Assembly: GCA_036557285.1 (NCBI GenBank) | Contig: DATBHW010000081.1 | Span: 1 to 64,000, forward strand | Direction of reading: 5' to 3' | Source: Ktedonobacterales bacterium | Lineage (GTDB): Bacteria > Chloroflexota > Ktedonobacteria > Ktedonobacterales > DATBGS01 | Length of the DNA stretch: 64,000 nucleotides | In this document: one piece after another, positions 8,309 to 60,423 of the stretch | Position numbering within the stretch: the stretch's first letter is position 1 | How the letters are laid out: each line of letters opens with the position of its first letter | Program-made: the position numbers and the translations under genes | The notes under the pieces: generated by a model | What the model saw: only the letters and a program-made list of their open reading frames with translations | Database searches by the model: none | Told to the model about the DNA's origin: nothing

Positions 8309-8337
8309 ATTATATCATGCCTGCCCCGGCTTGTCTA
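8309..8337 (-). promoter_or_regulatory. Promoter inside the ligA 3' end
   Basis: On the minus strand: -35 TAGACA (8332-8337), a 17-nt spacer and a perfect -10 TATAAT (8309-8314). It overlaps the last codons of ligA and would start transcription near 8302, about 95 nt before the 62-residue gene. Confidence 0.6.
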
Positions 8338-10624
8338 ATAGCTCCTGGCTTCCGCTGGCGCTTTCGACGCCAGGGCCGCGCTGCTTGTGCTGGGCAAGCA
8401 GCGCAATCAACCAGGTTTCGTCGCGGATGGGTACGCCGAGCTTCTGCGCTTTGGGCAGTTTGGAGCCTGCGTCCTCGCCGACGATCAGATGGTTGAGTCC
8501 TTTGCTGACGCCGCTGGCAATAGCTCCGCCAAGCTGCTGAATAGCTTCTTCGGCCTGGGGGCGCGACATGCTTTGCAGCCGTCCGGTGAGCAGGAAAGTC
8601 TGCCCGGCCAGCGGCCCCGTTGCCAGCGCAGCGCCGCTGCGGTCATTTTCCATGCGCGCGCCTGCCACCTGGAGTTTTTCGATGACTTCGCGGTTGCGCG
8701 GCTGCTGAAGCCAGAGATAGAGGCTGTGGCCGATCTTGGGGCCAATGCCAGCCAGCGCGGTGATCTGCTCTTCGCTGGCGGCCAGAAGCTTCTCCATCGT
8801 CTCAAATGAAAGCGCAACGGTCTGAGCGGCTTTTTCGCCGACGTAACGGATGCCCAGCGCAAAGAGCAGGCGCGAAAGCGGGCGCTGTTTGCTGGCCTCA
8901 ATGGCATTGATGATGTTATTGGCTTTCTTTTCGGCGAAGCCTTCCAACTTAAGCAGGTCGTCTTTGGTCAGGCGATAGATGTCGGCAGGGTCTTTCACAT
9001 AGCCAGCCTTGATGAGATCGTCGCAGAGTTCATCGCCCATGCCTTCGATGTCCATTGCGCCGCGCGAAACAAAGTGGCGGATCAGTTCGGTCAACTGCGC
9101 CTGACAGTTTTCCGGCAGGTTGGAGCAATAGGCCATCGCCTCGTCTTCGTTGCGAATGACGGGCGCGTCGCAAGACGGGCATTTGTCGGGCAACTGGTAT
9201 TCGGGCGGTGGAGGATCGGGCCGCTTCTCGATGATCGGCTTGACGACCTGGGGAATGACATCCCCTGCGCGCTGCACCACGACCCAATCGCCGATGCGCA
9301 GGTCTTTGCGGCGAATGTCGTTTTCGTTGTGCAGGGCGGCGGCCCTGATGATGGTGCCGCCGATGTTGACGGCTTCCAGCACAGCATACGGATTGAGCGA
9401 GCCGGTGCGGCCCACGTTGACGCGAATGTCGAGCAGGCGTGTCGTCTGCTGGATGGGCGGAAACTTGAAGGCGATGGCCCAGCGCGGGTCGTGAGCGACG
9501 ACACCTAGCTCATCCTGCTGGTGGCGATCATTGATTTTGACGACCACGCCGTCAATCTCGTAGGGAAGCTGGAAACGATCCTGCTGCCATTTCAGACAAA
9601 AGGCGATGACATCTTCCAGGTTATCGAAGAGTCGGGCGTTCGGGTTGACCGGAAAGCCCCAGCCGCGCAGCAGTTCGAGCAACTGCCATTGAGTGTCAAC
9701 GCGCAAGTTGTCATCCTGGATGTACCCGATCTGGTAGCCGAAGTATTCCAGGTTGCGCCTGGCAGTAATTGACGGGTCTTTCTGGCGCAATGAGCCAGCG
9801 GCGGAGTTGCGCGGATTGGCAAAGAGCCGGGGGCCTTTCTGCTCACCCGTCACGGCTGCGGCGGCTTCGGGGAGGGTGGCTGCAATGGCCTCAACGTTTG
9901 CTGCTTCTGTGGCAGCGGCGGGCGAGGCGTTGGTAGTGGAGCTGGCCTGGCGCGCGCGCTCGGCGGCAAGGGCGATCTGTTCGTTAAGCTGCTCAAAGCT
10001 CCTGGTGGGCATGTAGACTTCGCCGCGCACCTCTACCTTCCGTGGGGTGGGTCCGCCGTTGTTTGCGCGCAGGCGCTGCGGGATGGGGCGAATGCTGCGG
10101 ATATTGGGAGTGATGTCTTCGCCCACAAAGCCATCGCCGCGTGTGGCTCCCAGGGTCAGGCGGCCATCTTCGTAGGTGATAGCTGTCGCCAGGCCATCAA
10201 TTTTGAGTTCGCAGACATAGGCGAAGGTGGCGTTGGGCAAGATCGCGCGGGCTCGACGCTCCCAGGCGCGCAGTTCCTCGACGTTGCGGGCGTTTGCCAG
10301 ACTGAGCATCGGGACCGGATGGATGTGCTTGGCAAAGTCGGTGGTGACGGCGGCAGCGCCTACGCGCTGTGTGGGCGAGTCGGGCGTCTGAAGTTCGGGA
10401 TGCTCCTGCTCGATGGCTTGAAGCTCGCGCACCAGCATATCGTAGTCGTAATCGCTGATGGTCGGGTTGTCCAGCACATGATAGTTATAGTTGGCATCGT
10501 CTATCTGGCTGCGCAGTTCGTCAACGCGCTTGATCAGCGCGTCGGCGCTTTCCAGGGTAGATTGGCCCTCGGCGGCTGGCGCGCGTGGCGCGACCTCTTC
10601 AGAAGCAGTTGGGTCGTAGGCCAT
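8315..10624 (-). CDS. ligA: NAD-dependent DNA ligase LigA
   Basis: Joins nicks during replication and repair using NAD+. 769 residues, about 100 more than usual. Order: an N-terminal extension (1-25), NMN-binding Ia domain (YNYHVLDNPTISDYDYD, 46-62), adenylation domain with active lysine K141 in CELKIDGLA, OB fold, Cys4 zinc finger (CPSCDAP ... CSNLPENC), helix-hairpin-helix repeats and a C-terminal BRCT domain. An Ala/Thr/Ser-rich stretch of ~47 residues (218-264) interrupts the adenylation domain just before LFANPRNSAAGSLRQ. It is in frame and probably a surface loop. GGGAGGG precedes ATG 10624. Confidence 0.95.
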   Translation of the reverse strand: MAYDPTASEEVAPRAPAAEGQSTLESADALIKRVDELRSQIDDANYNYHVLDNPTISDYDYDMLVRELQAIEQEHPELQTPDSPTQRVGAAAVTTDFAKHIHPVPMLSLANARNVEELRAWERRARAILPNATFAYVCELKIDGLATAITYEDGRLTLGATRGDGFVGEDITPNIRSIRPIPQRLRANNGGPTPRKVEVRGEVYMPTRSFEQLNEQIALAAERARQASSTTNASPAAATEAANVEAIAATLPEAAAAVTGEQKGPRLFANPRNSAAGSLRQKDPSITARRNLEYFGYQIGYIQDDNLRVDTQWQLLELLRGWGFPVNPNARLFDNLEDVIAFCLKWQQDRFQLPYEIDGVVVKINDRHQQDELGVVAHDPRWAIAFKFPPIQQTTRLLDIRVNVGRTGSLNPYAVLEAVNIGGTIIRAAALHNENDIRRKDLRIGDWVVVQRAGDVIPQVVKPIIEKRPDPPPPEYQLPDKCPSCDAPVIRNEDEAMAYCSNLPENCQAQLTELIRHFVSRGAMDIEGMGDELCDDLIKAGYVKDPADIYRLTKDDLLKLEGFAEKKANNIINAIEASKQRPLSRLLFALGIRYVGEKAAQTVALSFETMEKLLAASEEQITALAGIGPKIGHSLYLWLQQPRNREVIEKLQVAGARMENDRSGAALATGPLAGQTFLLTGRLQSMSRPQAEEAIQQLGGAIASGVSKGLNHLIVGEDAGSKLPKAQKLGVPIRDETWLIALLAQHKQRGPGVESASGSQELLDKPGQA

Positions 10625-29206: not shown

Positions 29207-29312
29207 ACGATATAATAAGGGCCATCTTGTGTGATACAAATGTGAAGATATGTTGGTTGGAAGCCAGCATATTGCTATGAAGTGGAATCAGGCGGATTTT
29301 GCTGGAGGTTTT

Positions 29313-31313
29313 ATGAAAGAGCCGTTTTTGGAGCGTTTGCAGCAAGGGCCGCTGCTGGCAGATGGGGCGATGGGGACGCTGCTCTATTCGCGTTTGCCCG
29401 GCGCTGCGGCGCGGGCGCGCTGCTTTGATGAAGTGACGCTTTCGCGGCCAGAACTGGTGCGGGCGATTCACCAGGAGTATATTCGCGCAGGCGCGCAAAT
29501 CATCGAGACAAACACCTTTGGGGCGAACCGCTCGAAGCTGGCAAATTATGATCTGGCCGACAAAGTGCGCCAGATCAATATCGGCGCAGCCAGGCTGGCG
29601 CGGGAAGTGCGCGAGATTACCGGCGAGAGCGTTTTCCTGGCCGGGGCTGTTGGGCCATCAGGCCGCCCGCTGCAAGCGCCCCTGACGGTCGAACGGGATG
29701 AACAGCGGGTGCTGGAACTGCGGGCGATCTTTCGTGAGCAGGTGGAGGGGCTGCTGGAAGGTGGCGTTGATCTCATTATTCTGGAGACCTTCTCTGATCT
29801 GGCTGAACTGCGCCAGGCGGTGCTGGCAGTGAAAGAAAGCTGCGATCTGCCGGTGGTGGCGCAGATGAGTTTTGGAGAAGATGGGCGCACGCTGGGCGGG
29901 CAATCGCCTGCCAGAGTCGCGCTGGCGTTGGCGGAGCTTGGCGCAGATGTCATTGGCGCGAATTGCAGCGTTGGCCCTTCCGGCACGCTGGATGTGATCG
30001 AAGAGATGGCGGTGGCGGTGCGCCGGTTGCCCCAGGTGACGCTTTCGGCGCAGCCGAACGCCGGACTGCCCAGCCGCATTGAGCAGCGTTTTTTGTATGT
30101 TTCCACACCGGAATATTTTGCCGATTACGCCCAGCGTTTTGCAGCGGCGGGAGTGCGCCTGATCGGAGGCTGCTGCGGCACGACGCCGCGCCATACGCTG
30201 GCGATGCGCCAGGCGCTGGACGACAAAGCAAAGGCGCAGACAGCAGTGAGCATGGCGTCTGCGGCGCTTGCTGTGGCGGCGCGCGCGCCTGCGAACGGGG
30301 CGCTGCTGGAAGAAGAAGGGGTCGCGGTCAAAGCTGGGATGCCCACGCGCCTGCAACAAAAGCTGGAGGTGGGTGAGTTTGTGGTGATGGTGGAACTCGA
30401 CCCTCCCAAGGGCTTGAACCCGGCGAAGATTCTGGAGGGGGCGCGACAGGTCAAAGAGGTGGGCGTTGAGCTTATCAACATTGCCGATAGCCCGATGGCG
30501 CGTGTGCGGATGAGTTGCCTGGCGATGGCGCGGTTGATCCGCGATCACCTGGACCTGGAGGTGATTATTCACTTCACCACTCGTGACCGCAATTTGATGG
30601 GGCTGCAATCAGACTTGCTGGGGGCGCACGCGCTGGGGATTCGCAATATCCTGGCGCTGACGGGCGATCCCATACACGCGGGGGATTATCCCAATCTGAC
30701 GGGCATCTGGAACGTGGATTCGGTAGGGCTGATTCGCATTCTCAAGGGGATGAACAAGGGCCAAGACGCGGCAGGGGCCTCGATTGGCGGCGAAGCGTCA
30801 TTTTACGTGGGCGCCGGGCTGAACCTGAATATGAACGAGGAGATCATTGACCTGGACCGCGAACGCTCGCGGCGCAAGCTGAAAGGGGATGGTGAAGCAG
30901 AAGAGGAGCCGCAGATCAGCGAGATTGAGTTGGAACTGGAACGCTATGATCGTAAGCTGGCGGCGGGGGCCGATTATATTATGACCCAACCCATCTATGA
31001 CATCACGGTGCTGGAGCGTTTTTTTGAGCGCAAGGGGAAACCGCCAGTCCCCATGATTCTGGGGATGATTCCGCTGCATAGCTTCCGGCACGCGGAACGT
31101 CTGCATAACGAGGTGGCGGGTATCACGATCTCCGATGCTGTACGCGAGCAGATGCGCGAAGCGGGGGAGCGTGGGCGCGAGGTGGGCATGGAACTGGCGC
31201 GCCAGCTCTTGCTGGAAGCGAAGGCGCGCGGCTATATCCAGGGCTGCTATCTGACGCCTTCGTTCGGGCGCTATGATGTGGTCAGTTCTGTGGCGCGTTC
31301 GCTGCTGGAATAG
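29313..31313 (+). CDS. Bifunctional homocysteine S-methyltransferase / methylenetetrahydrofolate reductase
   Basis: YitJ-like fusion of 666 residues. The N-terminal half (~1-300) is a zinc-dependent homocysteine methyltransferase barrel with ADGAMGTLLYSR, GANCSVGP and GGCCGTTPRHT (the Cys and CC zinc ligands). The C-terminal half (~330-666) is a MetF-type barrel with VVMVELDPPKGLNP, ILALTGDPIHAGDYP and AGADYIMTQPIYD. An acidic ~35-residue insertion (NEEIIDLDRERSRRKLKGDG) interrupts the MetF half. ATG 29313 is chosen for TGGAGG 5 nt upstream; an in-frame ATG at 29250 has no site. Links methionine synthesis to folate one-carbon flow. Confidence 0.92.
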   Translation: MKEPFLERLQQGPLLADGAMGTLLYSRLPGAAARARCFDEVTLSRPELVRAIHQEYIRAGAQIIETNTFGANRSKLANYDLADKVRQINIGAARLAREVREITGESVFLAGAVGPSGRPLQAPLTVERDEQRVLELRAIFREQVEGLLEGGVDLIILETFSDLAELRQAVLAVKESCDLPVVAQMSFGEDGRTLGGQSPARVALALAELGADVIGANCSVGPSGTLDVIEEMAVAVRRLPQVTLSAQPNAGLPSRIEQRFLYVSTPEYFADYAQRFAAAGVRLIGGCCGTTPRHTLAMRQALDDKAKAQTAVSMASAALAVAARAPANGALLEEEGVAVKAGMPTRLQQKLEVGEFVVMVELDPPKGLNPAKILEGARQVKEVGVELINIADSPMARVRMSCLAMARLIRDHLDLEVIIHFTTRDRNLMGLQSDLLGAHALGIRNILALTGDPIHAGDYPNLTGIWNVDSVGLIRILKGMNKGQDAAGASIGGEASFYVGAGLNLNMNEEIIDLDRERSRRKLKGDGEAEEEPQISEIELELERYDRKLAAGADYIMTQPIYDITVLERFFERKGKPPVPMILGMIPLHSFRHAERLHNEVAGITISDAVREQMREAGERGREVGMELARQLLLEAKARGYIQGCYLTPSFGRYDVVSSVARSLLE

Positions 31314-34320: not shown

Positions 34321-35781
34321 TTAGAGGGTGAGCCTGCCGCTGGCTCGTCGCACGTCCTGGGCGACGAAGCGACTGCCCCAGATGCCGATGATTCCGGCGA
34401 TCAGCAGGGCGGCAGGGCCAGTGATGAGCATAGCCTCGGCCAATTTGGATTGGCTATGAGGGTCGAGCCAGTACGAGATGCCACCCACGATGGAGGGGGC
34501 AGCAAGATCACCAAGCAGATGAGCCAGCATAAACGCCAGGGCAACTGCTGAGGAGCGTATCGCTGGCGGCACAGCGTCTTGTAAGGCGGCATTGAGCGGG
34601 CCGACATAAGCATTGAGCAAGGCGCCGCTGAGGACGAAGAAGGGCAGGAAAACCCAGATGCTGGGGCTGATCAGAGCGAGCGTGAAAATGGGCGCTGCTA
34701 ACAGGAAGCTAATCCCGCCAGCCATCAGGCGGCCCCCAACATAGCGTTTGGTGAGCCAGTCGGCCAGGTAGCCGCCGCCCAGCGCGCCACCGATGCTTGC
34801 CAGGGCCAGCAGCAGAGCTGCGCCACCGATGCCCATCAGCGGGAGGTGATAATCACGCCTGAGGAGTGGCGAGAAGAAGATGGCCGCAGGTGTGATGACA
34901 AAGAGTCCCAGCGCCTGAATGATGACGCATATCACCAGCGTGCGGATGCGCAGAAGGCTTCTGATCTGCGCCAGGATGGAGCGTAAACCGCCGCCAGGGT
35001 GGTAGCCGTGTGGCCCGCTCTCGCCAAGTCCCTCGTCTTCTGCCTGCCGGGGTGGTTCGCGCGTTTTCCACATCAGGAAGGCCAGGAAGAGTCCAGGTGG
35101 GCCGATGAAGAAAAAGGCCAGCCGCCAGCTATGTGTTATTTGGGCGACGAGGCCGCCGACGAGAATGCCCACCGCGAAGCCAACCAGCGCCCCGGCTGCC
35201 CAGCGGCTGAGGATTTGGGCGCGGCGTTTGCCAGGGAAGTATGAACTGAGCAGCGAGGTGCCTGCCGGGGTGTAACTGGCTTCGCCGATGCCCAGCCAGG
35301 CTCGCGTGGCGAGCAAACCAAAAAAACTGTGGACGAAAGCAGTGAGGAGCGTGGCGGCACTCCAGAGAGCGACACCAGCGGCAATGACATCTTTACGCTT
35401 GATGCGATCTGCGAGGAGTCCCAGGGGCAGCGCGCCCACCGCGTAAATGAGCAGGAATGAACTGCTGAGCAGCCCCGTCTGGAAGTCATTGATGCAGAAG
35501 GTGGCGTGAACGCCGCGACGGCAGAAGGACTGGTCTGTCTGGATCAAGGGGAGCAAGAGGCTGAAGACCCAGCGGTCCACGTAATTCATCAGGTTGATGC
35601 AGAACATCAGCCAGAAGATATAGCGGCCATAGCTCCGCGCGTAGGCCCAGGCGCTTGCAGCACTGGTCTCGCTTTCGGCCTGCGCTGTTCCTTCTGCCCG
35701 GGCGCCGTATGCTGGATCGTCGCTAATGGTAGGTTCAAGCATCTCCATCACCTCCCTATCCTCATCCCTAGAGCGTGCCAT
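34321..35781 (-). CDS. MFS transporter, spinster-like
   Basis: 486 residues, 12 predicted helices. Family motifs: YVDRWVFSLLLPLIQ in helix 1, LGLLADRIKRKDVIAAGV between helices 2 and 3 (MFS motif A), and GIGEASYTPAGTSLLSSYFPGKRRAQILS (helix 4-5), shared almost word for word with the next MFS gene, so the two are paralogues. The first 55 residues are hydrophilic and acidic. ATG 35781 has AAGGGG upstream; ATG 35742 (MLEPTISDD) also has GGGAGG and is an alternative. Spinster-like MFS carry lipids, sugars or organic anions; the substrate is unknown. Confidence 0.87.
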   Translation of the reverse strand: MARSRDEDREVMEMLEPTISDDPAYGARAEGTAQAESETSAASAWAYARSYGRYIFWLMFCINLMNYVDRWVFSLLLPLIQTDQSFCRRGVHATFCINDFQTGLLSSSFLLIYAVGALPLGLLADRIKRKDVIAAGVALWSAATLLTAFVHSFFGLLATRAWLGIGEASYTPAGTSLLSSYFPGKRRAQILSRWAAGALVGFAVGILVGGLVAQITHSWRLAFFFIGPPGLFLAFLMWKTREPPRQAEDEGLGESGPHGYHPGGGLRSILAQIRSLLRIRTLVICVIIQALGLFVITPAAIFFSPLLRRDYHLPLMGIGGAALLLALASIGGALGGGYLADWLTKRYVGGRLMAGGISFLLAAPIFTLALISPSIWVFLPFFVLSGALLNAYVGPLNAALQDAVPPAIRSSAVALAFMLAHLLGDLAAPSIVGGISYWLDPHSQSKLAEAMLITGPAALLIAGIIGIWGSRFVAQDVRRASGRLTL

Positions 35782-36176: not shown

Positions 36177-37625
36177 CTATGCAGTCACCTGAACACGCTC
36201 CTGGCGTTTGCTCTCGACGATTTTCAAGTCTTTGCGCACGAAGTTGATGCCCAGCAGGCCAATCAATCCCGCCAGGGCCAGCAGAACGGGCATGGTTATC
36301 AGCATGGCGGTAGCGGTATAGATACCGCCCGGGTCTTGTGTACTCAAGTTGCCACCACTCTGATTCAAGAGATCGAGGACAGGGTGGCCGCTCAATTTGT
36401 TGATCAGCAAACCAATCTGGAAGGATGATGTTGCATCACCAAGCAGGTGCGCGATAAGCAGGGAGATGGCAACCGACATCGCCCGCAGCTCTGGCCGCAC
36501 CACGTCCTGAGAGAGGGCGCTGAGCGGGCCATTATAGACGTTGAGAAGCATGCCGGTCAGGAAAAAGAAGGGCAGAAAGACACCCAGACTTGGGCTGATG
36601 AGCGCCAGAGCTATGAGCGGCGCGCTGACAAAAAATCCCAGTGCGCCGACGATGAGGCGTCCGCTGATCCAGCGGCGGTTGCAGAGATCAGCCAGCCATC
36701 CACCCAGCAGTGCGCCAAGAATGCCAGCGATGACCAGCACCGCGCCAGAGAGCAGGCCAGCATTGCCTTCTGAGATACCAAAGCGAAGCTGTAAGTAAAT
36801 GGGGAGCCAGTTGGCGGCTGAGCCAAGCACCCAGAAGGCCAGAATCTGGACAGTGATGGTGATAACAATCGTGCGGATGCTGAGCAGTTCCTTGAAGGCG
36901 CGGCCCAGGGGGACCGCGTGGCTGCTCGCTGTCTGCGCCTGCTGTTCGTGCGGTTCGCCCGCTACCCAGCCATCGGCCTGGCCGCGCCGAGGCTCGCGCA
37001 GCCGGTACGCCAGGTAGGTGAAGAACAGGCCAGGGATGCCGGCCACGAAGAAGGCAAAGCGCCAGGCGCTGATGCCCCCGATAGTGCCGATGTCGGCGAT
37101 CTCACCGCCGATAGCGAATCCCAGGGCCAGGCCAATCAGAGAGCCAGCCGTCCAGCGGCTCAAGATTTGTGCGCGTCTCTTACTGGGAAAATAGTCACTG
37201 AGCAGGGAAGTTCCCGCCGGATAATAGCCCGCTTCGCCTACGCCTACGGCGGCGCGTCCTATGAAGAGGGTAGGGATATTGACGGCAAAGCCAGAGATGA
37301 ATGTGGCGATGCTCCAGAGGCCAACCCCAAGCGAGATGACATTCTTGCGAATGCCCCGGTCAGCCCAATAGCCCAGGGGCAGCGCGCAGATGGCATAGAC
37401 GGTGAGGAATGCTGAGGTCAATAGCCCGGCCCCACCAAAGCTGAGGTGAAGGTCAGCAGAGATGGAACTCAAGGCCCCCGGAAGGATGTAGCGATCCAGA
37501 TAATTGAAGAAGTTGATGGCGAACATGACCCAGAAGACATAGGATGCGTACCGCGCGCTTTTTTGCGCCCGGGAGTCCTGCTGTTTGCCGTCCTCGCTTT
37601 CGGCTGGCAGCGGCATATCGCTCAT
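36177..37625 (-). CDS. MFS transporter, spinster-like (paralogue)
   Basis: 482 residues from ATG 37625, chosen because AAGGAG lies 7 nt upstream; an earlier in-frame start has no site. 12 helices; NYLDRYILPGALSSI, LGYWADRGIRKNVISLGV and GVGEAGYYPAGTSLLSDYFPSKRRAQILSRW match the neighbouring MFS gene closely, a local duplication. The substrate is unknown. An extended -10 lies at 37701-37711. It is divergent from the lipoprotein/DHA2 pair. Confidence 0.87.
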   Translation of the reverse strand: MSDMPLPAESEDGKQQDSRAQKSARYASYVFWVMFAINFFNYLDRYILPGALSSISADLHLSFGGAGLLTSAFLTVYAICALPLGYWADRGIRKNVISLGVGLWSIATFISGFAVNIPTLFIGRAAVGVGEAGYYPAGTSLLSDYFPSKRRAQILSRWTAGSLIGLALGFAIGGEIADIGTIGGISAWRFAFFVAGIPGLFFTYLAYRLREPRRGQADGWVAGEPHEQQAQTASSHAVPLGRAFKELLSIRTIVITITVQILAFWVLGSAANWLPIYLQLRFGISEGNAGLLSGAVLVIAGILGALLGGWLADLCNRRWISGRLIVGALGFFVSAPLIALALISPSLGVFLPFFFLTGMLLNVYNGPLSALSQDVVRPELRAMSVAISLLIAHLLGDATSSFQIGLLINKLSGHPVLDLLNQSGGNLSTQDPGGIYTATAMLITMPVLLALAGLIGLLGINFVRKDLKIVESKRQERVQVTA

Positions 37626-37700
37626 ACTCGCTCCTTTTACGTCGGCCTGCTCCCCTGCTCGCATGGCGGGATCGCCTGGCCCGGCGCTGATGATACGCCC

Positions 37701-37754: not shown

Positions 37755-37783
37755 TTGACGGCACAGTTCTTTTTGCTCATAAT
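37755..37783 (+). promoter_or_regulatory. Promoter of the lipoprotein-DHA2 operon
   Basis: -35 TTGACG (37755-37760), a 17-nt spacer and -10 CATAAT (37778-37783). Start near 37790, about 120 nt before the lipoprotein ATG. Confidence 0.65.
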
Positions 37784-37910: not shown

Positions 37911-38675
37911 ATGGTTCGTTTTTCGTCCCTATTTGCTCGGAGGGCTGCGCACTGGCGAAGAGTACTGTTGGCGCTGTCGCTTGCCCTGGTGGGCGCGCTG
38001 GTCCTCGCGGCGTGCGGCGGTGAAGACGTAAGCCCTCCCAGCCCAGGCGCGTTGATTCAGGCTGCCCAGAAGGCGATCAATAGCGATACCGCCTTTCATT
38101 TTAAGATGCGGGTCGATCATCCGGGAACCCCCAGCGTGGGGGCGTTGAGCATTGACGCGGCTGATGGCGATGTCAAGAAGCCCGATCAGATTAAAGGGAC
38201 GGCGACGGTATCCATGGGCGGGCCGGACATTGCTGTGCAGTTTATCGGTATTGGCGATCAGGAGTGGGTGCTGACACCTCTCAGTCCAGATTGGGTCTCG
38301 GCAGATGAATATGGCATAGACCTGGGCAAAGTGCTGGACCCTGATGTCGGGATCAGCGCGGTGCTGGGCGCGATGCAGAACCCAAAGAATATCGGCGATG
38401 ATACCGTATCTGGAGGAGGGGATTGCTGGTTGGTGCAGGGAACGGTACCCTCTGGCGCGCTGGCCGCGGTTGTTGGCGGCGATCCCGACGGGACGACCCC
38501 CATTGATACGACGGTGTGCATTGCGAAAAATCTGGACGGCAAGGGCCTGCGTCAGCCTTACGAGATTATCATCAAGGGCGTGGCCGCTGAGGGCGATACG
38601 GCTCAGACGACGCGCACATTTACCCTCTCGAAGTTTAACGAGAGCATCACTATTGAGCCGCCTCCGCAACAGTAA
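37911..38675 (+). CDS. LppX/LprAFG-family lipoprotein (LprG-like)
   Basis: 254 residues from ATG 37911 with GGGAAGG upstream. The signal peptide ends in the lipobox LAAC. The mature part fits the LppX_LprAFG fold: AAQKAINSDTAFHFKMRV, GALSIDAADGDVKKPDQIKG, TATVSMGGPDIAVQFIGIGD, then a late FTLSKFNESITIEPP. In mycobacteria this fold has a hydrophobic pocket that carries acylated lipids. The MFS pump gene starts 9 nt later, as in the lprG-P55 operon. Transport of a lipid or glycolipid to the cell surface is inferred. Confidence 0.8.
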   Translation: MVRFSSLFARRAAHWRRVLLALSLALVGALVLAACGGEDVSPPSPGALIQAAQKAINSDTAFHFKMRVDHPGTPSVGALSIDAADGDVKKPDQIKGTATVSMGGPDIAVQFIGIGDQEWVLTPLSPDWVSADEYGIDLGKVLDPDVGISAVLGAMQNPKNIGDDTVSGGGDCWLVQGTVPSGALAAVVGGDPDGTTPIDTTVCIAKNLDGKGLRQPYEIIIKGVAAEGDTAQTTRTFTLSKFNESITIEPPPQQ

Positions 38676-38684
38676 GGGGCAATC

Positions 38685-40460
38685 ATGGGTGAGAGAACAG
38701 AGCCAGGCCAGAAGGACGGCGAGCCAGCGCAACCCGCAGGCACTCCGGGCGGGAGAGTAGGGCGTTCGGCGGCCACGCTGGCGCTGGTTATTGCCTGCAT
38801 GGCGGTCTTTGTGACGGCCCTCGATCAGACGGTGGTTGTCACCGCGCTCCAGCCGATCATGAAAGACCTGCAAATCCCTTCAGAACATCTTGACCAGGCG
38901 GCCTGGATTATTAGCGGCTATCTGCTGGGCTATGTGATTGTGATGCCGCTGATGGGGCGAGTGTCGGATATGTACGGGCGGCGGCGCATCTTTATGTTGT
39001 GTCTTGCCATCTTTGGTCTGGCCTCGCTGGCCTGCGCTCTGGCAAATCCAGCGATCCTCGAAAGTTTTGGGGTGTCGCTCTCGTTTCAGCACAAGTTTGC
39101 CAATGCGCAAGATCAGTTTGCGCTCTGGCTCAAGCCGCTGGGGCTGAACTCCTGCGCCGCCGATAATGCCAGCTCGCAGTGTGTGCAATCGGGGCTGGTC
39201 TGGCTGGTCCCCGCGCGCTTCATTCAGGCGATTGGTGGCGGCGCGGTGGTGCCAGTGGCGATGGCCCTGGCCGGTGATTATTTTGGTATCCGGCGGCGCG
39301 GCCTGATGCTGGGCATCATCGGCGCGGTCACAGAGGCGGGCGGCGCGTTGGGGCCGCTGTATGGCGCTGGCATCATTCAACTCTTCAATGGGTGGGCCTG
39401 GATTTTTCTGCTGAACGTGCCGCTGGTTTTCATCTTGATGGTGGCTGGCTGGTTTCTGGTACCCAGAGGCGGGCATGCTCGTGCGCGTGTGGATTGGCTG
39501 GGGGCGCTTTTGCTGGGGGCGTCGCTGGCCTGTTTGAGCCTGGGGCTTTCGCAGAACGCGGGGCAAACGGGTTTTTCGCTGACAGCCACCGCCGAAAATA
39601 ATCCCCTGCTGGTTGGGTCGGCGCTGCTCCTGCTGGTGTTGTTTGTGGCGCGCGAGATTTTTTCGCGCTCGGCAATGATCGAGGTGCGGCTTTTCAGGCA
39701 GCGCGCCTTCAGCGCATCCATTATAAGCAGCCTGCTGGTTGGCGCGGTCTTGATTGTGGCGCTGGTTGATATTCCCATCTTTTATCTGACGGTGGTGAAT
39801 GGCACGATCCTCCAGACGGGACTCTCGCTGCTCTGCATGACGGTTTGGATTCCGCTGAGCGCGGTGGTTGGCGGCTGGCTCTGCCACCGTATCGGGTGTC
39901 ATCTGACAGGGGCGCTGGCGCTCCTCCTGATCGCGGTCGGATTCTTCTTGATGCGCTTCTGGCCGGTCAACCTGGGCTGGCCGCAGTTAATAGGCGATAC
40001 CTTGGTGATGGGGGTGGGCTTTGGGCTGGTGGTTGCCCCATTGGGTACCTCCACGCTGAACGCGGCGGGCGCAGCGCGCGGCGGCATGGCCTCGGCGGTT
40101 GTGACCTCGGCGCGGATGATTGGCATGATTCTGGGCCTGGCGGCGCTCACCTCCTATGGCCTGGCGCGGTTTCGGCAGTTGAGCGCGGGCTATACCCTCC
40201 AGCAGTTGAATCAGCCCGGGGCGTTCAGCGATTTGCTCCGTGAGCTCTATTCAGAAATATTTACGGCTGCCGCGATCCTCTGCCTGGTGGCGCTGCTCCC
40301 GGCTGCGCTGCTCTGGCGGGAGGCGGATCAGGAGCGTCTGGCTGCCGCTGCGCCTCGCGGGGAGCTTGCCGCGACGGAGCGTGATGCTGAGCAGCGTGGT
40401 GAGGCTGCGCTGCTTTTGGATGCGCGCCCGCGCGAGGACATACCTGGAAACCATGACTGA
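38685..40460 (+). CDS. DHA2-family MFS efflux pump (14 TMS, P55/EmrB-like)
   Basis: 591 residues. Helix 1 [18 protein letters not shown] and motif [14 protein letters not shown] are DHA2 hallmarks; motif C appears as [15 protein letters not shown]. An extracellular insertion of about 49 residues (121-169, with C157 and C166) separates helices 3 and 4, where DHA2 proteins normally have a short loop. A hydrophilic tail follows the last helix. Translationally linked to the LprG-like lipoprotein (9-nt gap, AAGGGG ribosome site). Drug:H+ antiport is the default family role. The lipoprotein partner suggests lipid export as for mycobacterial Rv1410c. Confidence 0.88.
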
Positions 40461-55932: not shown

Positions 55933-58900
55933 ATGTTGATTACCAGAGTTGAGCTAGAAAATATCAAGAGCTATCGCCGCGCCGTCATTGAACTGCGGCG
56001 GGGTACAACGGCTGTTCGCGGCCAGAATGGCGCGGGGAAGACAACGCTGGTCGAGGCAATTGGTTTTGCGTTGTTTGATTATCTGCCCTATAACCAGACG
56101 CAGTTTGTGCGCGAAGGTGAACGCAGCGGCCAGGTAAGCGTGACGTTCGAGTCGGGAGTGGATCATGAGGAGTATGAGGTGGTGCGGCGTTGTGGAACGC
56201 CATCCGTCTGGTATGTCTATGACCCCCAGATTGATAAGCGCCTGGTGGAGCAGAAAGCTGATGTGCTTGACTGGCTGCGCGAGCATCTGCCTGTGCCGGG
56301 CGACATCGAACTGGGCGCTTTTTTCTCCGATGCGCTGGGTGTGCAGCAGGGGACTTTTACCAGCGATTTTCTGGCTGCGCCTGCGCTGCGCAAGCGCAAA
56401 TTCGATGCGCTCTTGCAGATCGAGGACTATCGTAAGGCGTTCGATAAACTGCTGGACACCCGCAACCACCTGCAACAATTGGAGCGTGATGCGGACGCGC
56501 AGGTGAAGGCACTGGAGAACGAAACGGCCCATGTGGCCGTCTGGCGCGAGGAATTGGAGGCGCAGCGAGCCGAACGTGATGTCGGGACACAGCGGGTTCT
56601 GGCAATCGAGGACGAACGCGGCCAGGCTGAAAAACAGCGCGATAAGTTACGGCGGCTGGGCGAGGAGGTGGCGGGTCTAAAGAGAGATTGGGAGGGGGCC
56701 GAGCATGAGTGGCGCTTGAACCAGCAGACGCTCGACCAGACTAAGTGCGATCTGGACGAGGCGAAAGCGGCGCAGCGCAAACTTGAAGAGAGCGCCGAGG
56801 ATTATACGCTCTATCTGCAAGCCGAAGTTGATCTGCGCCTGGCCCACGAGCAGCAGCAGGCGCGGCAGAAGCTGCTGGAGCAGCAGGCGATACAGAAGCA
56901 AGAGCGCACCAAGGCGCGTGTGATGGTGGGGCATGCTGAGACGCAACTGGAGCGGGCGGAAGCGGCGCTCCAGCAGATGGAGAAACTGGCTCCGTTGGTG
57001 GAGCAGCAAGCCCGACTGGAGCAGCAAATACGCGCGGCGCAGCAAGACATCAAACGGCTGCGCGACGTGCAGCAAGAGGTGAAAGGGCTGGAGGCAGAAC
57101 GCGCTCGTCTTGTGGAGGACTTAGACCGGCAGACGCGCCAGATTGCGACAATTGAAGCGCAGCGGGCCGAGGCTGCGCTGCTGGACGAGCGCCAGGCTGA
57201 GGTCGAGCGGCTGCGCCTGGAGGATCAGCGCCGCAATGATTGGGAGCGTGAGTTGCAGGAGGCGCGCGACAGCCTGACCGAACAGAAGGCGCTGCGCCAG
57301 AAAGCTGACGCCATCGTCGAAAAAAGCCAGGCTGATGTTGCTAAACTCCTGGCGAACCAGTCTGTAGTGGCGACGCTGCCTGGGCTGGAGGCCGCCTGGA
57401 ACGAGCTGCGCCAGCAGGTGATCTTGCTGTCAGGCAATATCAAGCGCCACAACGAATCGAAACTTCAGTCTGCCGGGGGGCATTGCCCGTTCTTGAAAGA
57501 GCCATGCCTGAATATCCGCCAAAAAGGGCTGTTGAGCCTGGAGATATATTTCGATGGGCTGATCGCGCGGGATCAAGCCGCTCTTGGGCCGCTGGAGGCG
57601 AAGCAAGCCGAACTCGACCAGCAGGTGCAGGAACTGCGCACAAAGAAGAGTTTCGTTGATCGGCTGGATGAATATCGTCAGCATTTGCTCAATGCCCAGG
57701 ACCAGCAAGCGCGCACACACAAGGAGGTTCAGCGCCTGGTGGCTCGTGAACGTGAACTGGCGGCGCTGCTCAAGGCGGCCAGCAAGAGCGCAGAGCGGTT
57801 GATCGAGCTACAGGCGCTCTGGAAGCGGAGCGATGAGGCTGATAAGCAGGTGCGCATGCTGGCGGGGCTGATCAGTCAGCAAGAAAGTCTGCAACGCCAT
57901 CTGGACGAACAGACACGGAAGCTGGAGGCTCTGCGCACCGAGCAGGCTGCCCTGGCGGACGCTCCCACGAGCGAGATGGAAGCTGCCGGGAAGTTGAGCA
58001 AGTTGGGCGATCCACGCCGCGATTATGCTCAGCAGGAAGGGATTGCCGCGCAGGAGCAAGACACCAGGGACGCCTTGAACAAGGCGAGCCAGATGGTCAC
58101 GCTGGCGGATGAGGCGCTGGCCGCGCTTGAGGCGCAGCTAGCGCCCTATGCCGGGCTGGACGAACGCATTGCGGGGCTGAACAGACAGGCTGAGCAGAGC
58201 CGCGCTGGCTATCACACCTATCTGGCGTATGAGCAGATGGCCGACAAAACTCCAGAGCGCCAGCGCGCCTATGACGCCGCGCTGGGGAGTGAGCGCCAGG
58301 CATACGAACAATATGCGCTGGCGGATCAGCGTTATGCCGAAAAGGCGGCGAACTATGATCCGCAGGCGCTGGCGGAGGTCCAGCAGCATTTAGATGACCT
58401 TCTTGAGGCGCAGGCCGGGTTGCGCGAGAAGCTGCGCGCTCTGCGCGAGGAAATTGGCAAGAAAGAGCAGCAGATCGCTCAGGCACAGGATAAGCTGGCC
58501 GAACTAGAAGCGGCGAAGGCTGAACATGCGGAGGTAGGCGAGACACGCGAAATGCTTCAGCAGTTCCGCGAGACGATCAGAGACGCTGGGCCGCACGTGA
58601 TGAAGGAACTGCTCAAGCAGATTTCCAAAGGGGCCAACCGCATCTTTGGCGATATTCTGGGGGACCGCTCGGTGGAGCTTTCCTGGCAAGAAGACTACGA
58701 GATCGTGCTGCGCACACGCGGCCAGGAACGCAGTTTTGCCCAATTGAGCGGCGGCGAACAAATGAGCGCCGCGCTGGCGGTGCGGCTGGCGCTGCTGAAG
58801 ACGCTGGCAAAATTGGATGTGGCTTTCTTTGACGAGCCAACGCAGAATATGGATGAGCTGCGGCGCGGCAATCTGGCCGAGCAGATTCGGCGGGTGCGCG

Positions 58901-59064
58901 GCTTTAACCAGTTGATCGTGATCAGCCATGATGATACCTTCGAGCAGGGGTTGGATAGCGTCATCTATCTGCAAAAGCGCGACGGCGAAACGGTGGTGAG
59001 CGATGGTGATCTGGCGCTGGCAGGCGCTTTCGCGGAGATTGGCTTCGATGGCGCGGGCGACTAA
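55933..59064 (+). CDS. sbcC: SbcC/Rad50-type SMC ATPase
   Basis: 1043 residues. N-terminal Walker A GQNGAGKTTLVEAIGFALF, long coiled coils (~180-500 and ~530-880), C-terminal ABC signature LSGGEQMSAALAVRL and Walker B VAFFDEPTQNMDELRR. With Mre11/SbcD it processes double-strand breaks and hairpins. The mid-coil hook is unusual: Cys518 and Cys525 (CPFLKEPC) are spaced C-x6-C instead of CxxC. nurA follows by 21 nt and sbcD lies nearby on the other strand. Confidence 0.93.
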   Translation: MLITRVELENIKSYRRAVIELRRGTTAVRGQNGAGKTTLVEAIGFALFDYLPYNQTQFVREGERSGQVSVTFESGVDHEEYEVVRRCGTPSVWYVYDPQIDKRLVEQKADVLDWLREHLPVPGDIELGAFFSDALGVQQGTFTSDFLAAPALRKRKFDALLQIEDYRKAFDKLLDTRNHLQQLERDADAQVKALENETAHVAVWREELEAQRAERDVGTQRVLAIEDERGQAEKQRDKLRRLGEEVAGLKRDWEGAEHEWRLNQQTLDQTKCDLDEAKAAQRKLEESAEDYTLYLQAEVDLRLAHEQQQARQKLLEQQAIQKQERTKARVMVGHAETQLERAEAALQQMEKLAPLVEQQARLEQQIRAAQQDIKRLRDVQQEVKGLEAERARLVEDLDRQTRQIATIEAQRAEAALLDERQAEVERLRLEDQRRNDWERELQEARDSLTEQKALRQKADAIVEKSQADVAKLLANQSVVATLPGLEAAWNELRQQVILLSGNIKRHNESKLQSAGGHCPFLKEPCLNIRQKGLLSLEIYFDGLIARDQAALGPLEAKQAELDQQVQELRTKKSFVDRLDEYRQHLLNAQDQQARTHKEVQRLVARERELAALLKAASKSAERLIELQALWKRSDEADKQVRMLAGLISQQESLQRHLDEQTRKLEALRTEQAALADAPTSEMEAAGKLSKLGDPRRDYAQQEGIAAQEQDTRDALNKASQMVTLADEALAALEAQLAPYAGLDERIAGLNRQAEQSRAGYHTYLAYEQMADKTPERQRAYDAALGSERQAYEQYALADQRYAEKAANYDPQALAEVQQHLDDLLEAQAGLREKLRALREEIGKKEQQIAQAQDKLAELEAAKAEHAEVGETREMLQQFRETIRDAGPHVMKELLKQISKGANRIFGDILGDRSVELSWQEDYEIVLRTRGQERSFAQLSGGEQMSAALAVRLALLKTLAKLDVAFFDEPTQNMDELRRGNLAEQIRRVRGFNQLIVISHDDTFEQGLDSVIYLQKRDGETVVSDGDLALAGAFAEIGFDGAGD

Positions 59065-59085
59065 AGAACCGCAGGGGAGAATCTG

Positions 59086-60423
59086 ATGCTCTACGCTTCC
59101 AAGGTGCTGGCGGCCCTGGCCGAGAAGCGCGAACATTTTCAGGGATTCGGCGCTGATTTTGGCAAGCAGATCAGCGGCTACCGTGAGGCGCTGCGTCAGC
59201 TTGGGCCGCGCTACCCCACCGCTGCGAGCATCAGCGCAAAGCTGGCTGGGCGGACGGATGCCGCGCCAGCGGGCGCTCTGCCGACGCAGGAGTATGATCG
59301 CTGGCGGGCGCTGGTGGGCGACCCTGCCGGGAGTCTGATACCCGCCATGAACTTTCGGGAGCAGTTCGAGCATCATCAGCAATCGCGCGCCTGGGCCGAA
59401 GGCATTCGCGGCATTACGACGCTGGCCGTTGATGGCAGCCAGCTTCCGCCCTGGCGCGATGCTTCCTTGCCGGTGGGACTGATCCAGGTGGGCCTTTTTG
59501 AGAACCCCCATGACCCGGCCCGCCCGTATGTGAAGGATGTGCTGGTTGAAGTCCTCTCGCCCGCCGATCTGGCCGAGGGCGAAAACCAGAGCCAGCGCGC
59601 CCCTGCGCAGGGGCAATCCTCCTCCGACCAGAATGGCGCAGGTACAGAAAGCGGGCAGAGCAGGCAGGCGCCAGGGCGCGCACATCATGAAAGCTTTGCG
59701 TACTCTGAGCAGATGGTGAACCTGCGCCGCTTTGAGTTGGAGACGCAGGCGCTGGTCAACTGGATGCGTCGCTATCAGGAGCGGCCAGCCGAGGCGCGCG
59801 GGGCGTTTCCGCTGGTCTTCTACGATGGCTCGCTGGTAGTTTCGTTTGCTTTGACGATGCCACCCTTCTATCGAGAGCGTTATGTTTCGGCGGCGCTGTC
59901 ACTGCTGGATGCCTCGCAAAACTGCCACGTGCCGCTGATCGGCTATATTGATACGAGCTACGCGCGCGATGTGACGACGCTGCTGGGGCGGCTCTTCGAT
60001 CAGTTACCTGAAACCAAGCATCTGCACGACGCCTTGCTCTGGCAAGGGGCGCTGGAATGGGGTGATCGCACTCCGGCCTTTATCTCGGCGCGCGGCGACG
60101 TGCTGGGCGGCTATGGGCGCTTTCACGAGCAGGTTGCGTTTGTGTATATGCAGACGGTGAGCCATCGCCCCCCGGCGCGGCTGGAGTTTCCGCGCTGGAT
60201 GCTGGAAGAAGGTATACTCGACGCCGCGCTGGATGTCGTGCGCGCTGAAGTGATTATCGGCAATGGCTATCCCTACGCCATCGAGGCGGCTGACGCGGTG
60301 GCTGTGATCTCTCTGCGTGACCGCGAGGAGTTTTATCGCCTCTTCCAGGAGTTCGCGGCCCGCAACGATCTGGGACTCTCTTTCTCCTCGAAAGCCCTGA
60401 GCAAAAGCCGCCGACGGGTATAA
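59086..60423 (+). CDS. nurA: NurA-domain nuclease
   Basis: 445 residues. NurA is a Mn2+-dependent 5'-3' nuclease with an RNase H-like fold. Motifs VDGSQLPPW (D116), FPLVFYDGSLVVSF and IGYIDTSYARDV carry the acidic residues, and a late AFVYMQ and IEAADAVAVISL match the fold. A hydrophilic Gln/Ser-rich insertion (about 163-205) follows the first strand cluster. It lies 21 nt after sbcC, so it is co-transcribed. Archaeal nurA normally sits with herA, mre11 and rad50; herA is absent here. Confidence 0.87.
   Translation: MLYASKVLAALAEKREHFQGFGADFGKQISGYREALRQLGPRYPTAASISAKLAGRTDAAPAGALPTQEYDRWRALVGDPAGSLIPAMNFREQFEHHQQSRAWAEGIRGITTLAVDGSQLPPWRDASLPVGLIQVGLFENPHDPARPYVKDVLVEVLSPADLAEGENQSQRAPAQGQSSSDQNGAGTESGQSRQAPGRAHHESFAYSEQMVNLRRFELETQALVNWMRRYQERPAEARGAFPLVFYDGSLVVSFALTMPPFYRERYVSAALSLLDASQNCHVPLIGYIDTSYARDVTTLLGRLFDQLPETKHLHDALLWQGALEWGDRTPAFISARGDVLGGYGRFHEQVAFVYMQTVSHRPPARLEFPRWMLEEGILDAALDVVRAEVIIGNGYPYAIEAADAVAVISLRDREEFYRLFQEFAARNDLGLSFSSKALSKSRRRV

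Follow-up and report, generated by a model that had tools for sequence, protein, structure and literature searches.

Can the lipid-export pair LprG-Rv1410c, a virulence-relevant system known almost entirely from work on mycobacteria and interpreted in terms of their mycomembrane, be recognized in a bacterium outside the Actinobacteria, and what would it carry there? The question is raised by a lipoprotein gene and a transporter gene that lie side by side in a Ktedonobacterales genome (Chloroflexota), within a 64,000-nt stretch of contig DATBHW010000081.1 that was analyzed as a whole and is referred to below as the window. The genome is a draft of 82 contigs and 97% completeness. The gene pair is a member of the known LprG-P55 kind, which thus occurs outside Actinobacteria and is phylum-wide. 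Family membership, gene layout, conservation, ion pairs, and fold match place the two genes with the mycobacterial exporter, and by analogy with it they would act as a lipid-export pair, a reading to which we assign a probability of about 0.7.

The gene pair and its products

The pair and its associated elements, all on the forward strand, are arranged as follows:

37755-37783 (+): candidate sigma-70-like promoter of the operon, TTGACG-17-CATAAT (10/12, consensus match only)
37911-38675 (+): gene of the LprG-type lipoprotein, 254 aa (ATG at 37911, stop to 38675; signal peptide 1-34, lipobox Cys35, LppX_LprAFG domain 45-248)
38676-38684 (+): intergenic gap of 9 nt between the lipoprotein and pump genes, with a Shine-Dalgarno-like AAGGGG just before the pump ATG
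38685-40460 (+): gene of the Rv1410/P55-type DHA2 MFS pump, 591 aa, 14 TM (ATG at 38685, stop to 40460)
39042-39188 (+): insert typical of the order, located in the pump's periplasmic loop between TM3 and TM4 (approximately residues 120-168), the longest in the set compared

The original prediction described a lipoprotein and a DHA2 pump 9 nt apart under one promoter. Both genes and their spacing stand as described, whereas the single promoter is a plausible reading: the site at 37755-37783 was the top sigma-70-like site in a promoter scan of the stretch but is a consensus match, and no convincing promoter or terminator was found between the two genes in the same scan.

The N-terminus of the lipoprotein (MVRF...LVLAAC) contains a standard lipobox, L-A-A-C, whose Cys35 is invariant among 26 aligned Chloroflexota lipoproteins. 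The protein matches the Pfam family LppX_LprAFG (PF07161) over the full profile length with 86.2 bits (E = 3.4e-24), well above the curated cut-off of 24 bits. Its sole significant relatives of solved structure, by sequence comparison with the PDB, are mycobacterial LprG (E = 2.6e-6) and LprF. The AF2 model (pLDDT 85) shows the LolA-like half-barrel fold of LprG, and Foldseek ranked LprG first among PDB entries (1.7e-14, probability 1.00, target TM 0.81), a fold match that partly depends on the sequence evidence, since the AF2 alignment contained actinobacterial LprG rows. The top seven chains were all LprG (3mh8/3mha/4zra), with the PIM-bound and TAG-bound forms at ranks 2 and 3; LprF (4qa8) and LppX (2byo) followed at ranks 8 and 9, and LolA and LolB were lower and weak. 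LppX of the LppX-MmpL7 system, LprF, and LprA have the Pfam family and the fold in common with the window lipoprotein, for which LprG ranks first; these other lipoproteins are not known to have a P55-type MFS pump as their partner. In the alignment with the PDB sequence, Ser80 and Ala98 of the lipoprotein correspond to residues that we take to be Ser72 and Val91 of LprG. Ser72 of LprG is a head-group contact and Val91 belongs to the pocket wall (PMC4709180). A search of a plasmid collection with the lipoprotein gave no match.

In profile searches the pump matches the MFS_1 and DHA2/EmrB models, including QacA/EmrB, and its AF2 model (pLDDT 86) contains 14 membrane helices with a long TM11 (463-500) and TM12 at 513-541, in agreement with the 14-helix DHA2 pump claimed earlier. 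The nearest solved structure by both sequence and fold is 8PNL, which is MHAS2168, the Rv1410 homolog of M. hassiacum: the sequence match reaches E = 1.2e-62, with QacA following at 5e-26, and in Foldseek 8PNL is first with 1e-21 against 4e-14 for the next. QacA, EfpA, and EmrB, although 14-helix DHA2 proteins as well, are far weaker matches (5e-26 and worse by sequence) and stand well behind in Foldseek.

Gene order, spacing, and the family and fold of the lipoprotein are common to the window pair, to LprG-Rv1410c (P27-P55; Rv1411c-Rv1410c) of M. tuberculosis, and to MHAS2167/68 of M. hassiacum, at identities of approximately 34% for the pump and 23% for the lipoprotein between the window pair and the mycobacterial one. 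Two parts of the pump differ from the mycobacterial version. The distance between S114 and L171, which spans the TM3-TM4 insert, is 57 in the window pump, compared with a median of 30 in the order and 9 in Actinomycetota, and the AF2 model places a helix at 132-152 within the insert at moderate pLDDT. In contrast, the TM11-TM12 stretch comprises 49 residues against a median of 62 in Actinomycetota, i.e., it is shorter by approximately 13; the periplasmic TM11-TM12 extension is required in the mycobacterial pump (PMC10576003). Since the insert lies on the lipoprotein-docking side and the TM11-TM12 stretch is shorter, the window pump may guide lipid somewhat differently from its mycobacterial counterpart.

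Conservation, key residues, and history of the pair

The distribution of the pair was studied in 41 genomes of the order and in 301 genomes of Chloroflexota in the GTDB sense, of which 30 and 118, respectively, contain a PF07161 match. A P55-type pump gene comes immediately after the lipoprotein gene, on the same strand, in all same-order loci (20/20), and one adjoins it downstream in most of the phylum loci read with flanks (68/80), the remaining 12 having a lipoprotein without an adjoining pump. When named genomes were searched with the pump alignment alone, they yielded 80 loci in Chloroflexota/Dormibacterota and Actinomycetota, together with one MAG labelled Acidobacteria; the lipoprotein gene is immediately upstream in 79 of 80, and the exception lies at a contig end. 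The pair is therefore kept together in related genomes, and it is widespread and probably old in Chloroflexota. A literature search outside subscription journals found no publication that mentions LprG or Rv1410 in connection with Chloroflexi/Chloroflexota groups, and no report of transport or lipid-binding experiments on a Chloroflexota member was found.

Eleven same-order genomes gave no PF07161 match: seven of them also have no P55-type pump, in two the pump lies at the edge of a contig, and G036 and G040 have a pump without the lipoprotein. In G019, which belongs to the same genus as the latter two, the pump also stands alone, with a weak lipoprotein match on another contig only. Because these three genomes of one genus keep the pump alone and 12 of the 80 phylum loci the lipoprotein alone, the partnership is not absolute.

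Residues D47, R178, E217, and R477 of the window pump fall in the alignment columns of D35, R118, E157, and R426 of MHAS2168 and are equivalents of D22/R108 and E147/R417 in the 14-helix DHA2 protein Rv1410 of M. tuberculosis. According to Remm et al. (2023, PMC10576003), 17 mycobacterial homologs conserve the E157-R426 ion pair of MHAS2168 whereas 46 other MFS transporters do not have it, D35 and R118 form a second pair, and the substitutions E147Q and R417A abolish the function of Rv1410 (PMC10576003). This ion-lock, a Glu in TM5 and an Arg in TM11 that line the cavity, is present in the window pump as E217/R477. The D47 (TM1)/R178 (TM4) pair is kept as well; being common to other DHA2 pumps, it is a weak marker alone.

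The residue survey covered 147 pumps with an adjacent lipoprotein, some of their genomes occurring in both collections, and gave 146 readable rows. The ion-lock Glu was found in 133/146 of the lipoprotein-paired pumps and in none of the seven other DHA2 pumps of the window genome, and the aligned residue of QacA is likewise not Glu. The ion-lock Arg, present in all paired pumps (146/146), was rejected as a family marker; because it also occurs in six of the seven paralogs, only the Glu separates the families in this set.

The 13 paired pumps without the ion-lock Glu constitute one Chloroflexota group (L072-L081, L084, L093, and L113), which reads D-T-A-G-W, with an Asp one residue earlier. This group represents a natural variant at a residue that is essential in Rv1410.

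In a pump tree rooted on the DHA2 paralogs of the window genome, all lipoprotein-partnered pumps form one clade with 8PNL, apart from the other DHA2 pumps (support 100/99), and the window proteins fall inside their own order (pump, 100/100; lipoprotein, 100/97). The actinobacterial pumps are an uneven sample, made up of those nearest to the Dormibacteria-type query. They constitute a single clade (100/100), which joins the Dormibacteria-type pumps (100/99) inside the Chloroflexota spread; a single Chloroflexota pump clade was rejected (AU p = 0.0002). Dormibacteria are a separate phylum according to NCBI and belong to Chloroflexota in the GTDB sense. The lipoprotein tree contains the same main groups as the pump tree, and the distances correlate (Mantel r = 0.85, 0/2000 permutations), which we read from these sequences as long joint inheritance of the two genes.

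The lprG-P55-type operon outside Actinobacteria that had been proposed is thus supported alike by gene order, by the profile and fold matches, by the orthology of the pump, and by its ion-lock residues; neither of the two outcomes named beforehand as refuting it, a failed LppX_LprAFG profile or a pair separated in related genomes, was observed. Since the pair is intact, with its mechanistic residues, across Chloroflexota, its core mechanism, the hand-over from an MFS pump to a lipoprotein, appears separable from the mycomembrane and from triacylglycerol. It is conceivable, and we suggest it tentatively, that LprG-P55 is an ancient system by which wall-bearing bacteria lacking a mycomembrane export lipid, with a cargo other than WS/DGAT-made triacylglycerol and a diversity in Chloroflexota no lower than that in Actinomycetota; the mycobacterial version would then be derived, a branch received from the Dormibacteria side or common to both, whose adoption of mycomembrane lipids came later. 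Chloroflexota offer both non-pathogenic hosts and natural variants (ion-lock Glu missing, lipoprotein missing, fused tail domain) in which the essential parts can be tested.

Proposed mechanism, cargo, and alternative explanations

By analogy with the mycobacterial system, the pump would draw a multi-acylated, hydrophobic lipid out of the cytoplasmic membrane core and into its hydrophobic cavity, switch outward in a proton-coupled manner via D47/R178 and E217/R477, with protons resetting it, and deliver the lipid into the pocket of the lipoprotein, which is anchored to the membrane and would carry it into the wall space. Proton-coupled lipid extraction would be the mechanism common to this pair and LprG-Rv1410c. 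The LolCDE-LolA/LolB system likewise passes a lipid-bearing cargo from a membrane extractor to a carrier of LolA-like fold; however, its extractor is an ABC transporter rather than an MFS protein and its cargo is a lipoprotein, and the window pair is not a member of it.

The best-documented cargo of mycobacterial LprG is triacylglycerol (PMC4709180), which is made by WS/DGAT enzymes. No WS/DGAT match (PF03007) was found in the 97%-complete window genome or in any of the 30 lipoprotein-bearing genomes of the same order (0/30), and only 19/118 lipoprotein-bearing genomes of the phylum have one; the test works, since PF03007 matches in 29 phylum genomes overall. Searches of the window genome for WS_DGAT_C and the eukaryote-type DAGAT gave no match, with no control matching either. 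Omp85 was not found in the window genome, and seven diderm controls were positive; Chloroflexi are described as lacking LPS and probably monoderm, although this is debated (PMC8871954). The window pair thus differs from the mycobacterial one in a Chloroflexota host that has neither WS/DGAT nor Omp85, in addition to the long TM3-TM4 insert and the shorter TM11-TM12 stretch. As to the mycobacterial-type function suggested for the locus, the operon type stands, whereas transfer of the mycobacterial cargo is doubtful, since the window genome and all 30 lipoprotein-bearing relatives in the order are without WS/DGAT. The cargo is probably not WS/DGAT-made triacylglycerol, and it is unlikely that the pair moves triacylglycerol to a mycomembrane in the classical manner.

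A cargo based on phosphatidylinositol (PI) is a reasonable guess, because Dictyobacter, cultured relatives from the order, contain phosphatidylinositol, unidentified glycolipids, and mannose among the whole-cell sugars (PMC12453558), because an inositol-1-phosphate synthase is present in the window genome, and because LprG binds acylated PI-mannosides as well as triacylglycerol (structures 3mha and 4zra). We tentatively favor such a PI-based or other glycolipid; triacylglycerol from an unrecognized enzyme is rather doubtful. Inositol-1-phosphate synthase (271/301 genomes) and GT87 (250/301) were rejected as tests of a PI-glycolipid cargo, being too widespread to discriminate.

That the pair does exactly the mycobacterial job, triacylglycerol export, is suggested by the same two families, the same key residues, and the alignment of lipoprotein Ser80 and Ala98 with LprG Ser72 and Val91, but it is unlikely given that PF03007 is absent from the genome and from 30/30 same-order carriers and present in only 19/118 phylum carriers, and that there is no Omp85, so that nothing points to an outer membrane of this type. 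Even less probable is a DHA2-type multidrug efflux pump with the lipoprotein as a minor helper. P55 was first described via drug phenotypes (PMC3146831), and the window pump also matches QacA/EmrB models; yet the genome has at least seven other DHA2 pumps, none with the ion-lock Glu, the window pump stands apart from them in the tree, a lipoprotein of a lipid-binding family has stayed adjacent across two phyla, and the mycobacterial drug phenotypes have been explained by a leaky envelope (PMC10576003). Chance neighborhood, or erroneous binning of an actinobacterial contig with this genome, is very improbable: both proteins lie inside the order of the window with full support and the pair is kept in 20/20 same-order loci. 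No support was found for either case; the genome is a draft in 82 contigs.

Tailed pumps, flanking genes, and other observations

In family f2, the P55-type pumps have a tail at the N-terminus and, at the C-terminus, an extra membrane helix that leads to a conserved extracytoplasmic domain of approximately 175 aa. The tailed f2 pumps are located as follows:

L061, 9214-12042: tailed f2 pump
L064, 9258-11930: tailed f2 pump
L067, 4317-6980 (-): tailed f2 pump
L228, 2018-4459: tailed f2 pump
L229, 565-3054 (-): tailed f2 pump

The tail domain occurs in 12 of the 41 order-sample genomes (a short remnant is present in G001), and wherever the flanking sequence is sufficient to tell, it lies on the pump frame. 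The domain gave no match in Pfam or the PDB and no profile similarity to LprG. The genus without an adjoining lipoprotein carries the tail, three other tailed loci retain the lipoprotein, and the window pump is tailless. The domain might replace or assist the lipoprotein, and a TULIP/LmeA-like fold is our hunch for it. In that genus (g2), three genomes have a tailed P55-type pump and no adjoining LprG-type lipoprotein, i.e., L228 (G036), L229 (G019), and L230 (G040), the pump of G040 being broken, split over several frames. Conversely, family f24 (L104, L119, L120, and L122) has the lipoprotein without an adjoining P55-type pump, in several nearly complete genomes.

Upstream of the pair, the window contains two tandem genes:

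34321-35781 (-): spinster-like MFS gene
36177-37664 (-): spinster-like MFS gene

Their nearest solved relatives are the 6e8j family and the lipid transporters SPNS1 and SPNS2. The original prediction took the two further MFS neighbors as a sign that the locus may serve surface lipid or metabolite traffic; the genes exist, but they are found beside the pair in 0/20 same-order loci and were rejected as part of the unit.

A search with a defence-system library gave no match. Elsewhere in the window, an NAD-dependent DNA ligase of 769 aa is encoded at 8315-10624 (-), and its adenylation domain matches in two stretches, which suggests an insert of approximately 90 aa. The interval 55933-60423 (+) contains the gene of an SMC/RecN-like ATPase (1043 aa) with a NurA nuclease gene immediately behind it. 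A homocysteine S-methyltransferase fused to a methylenetetrahydrofolate reductase is encoded at 29250-31313 (+), the reductase part matching in two stretches.
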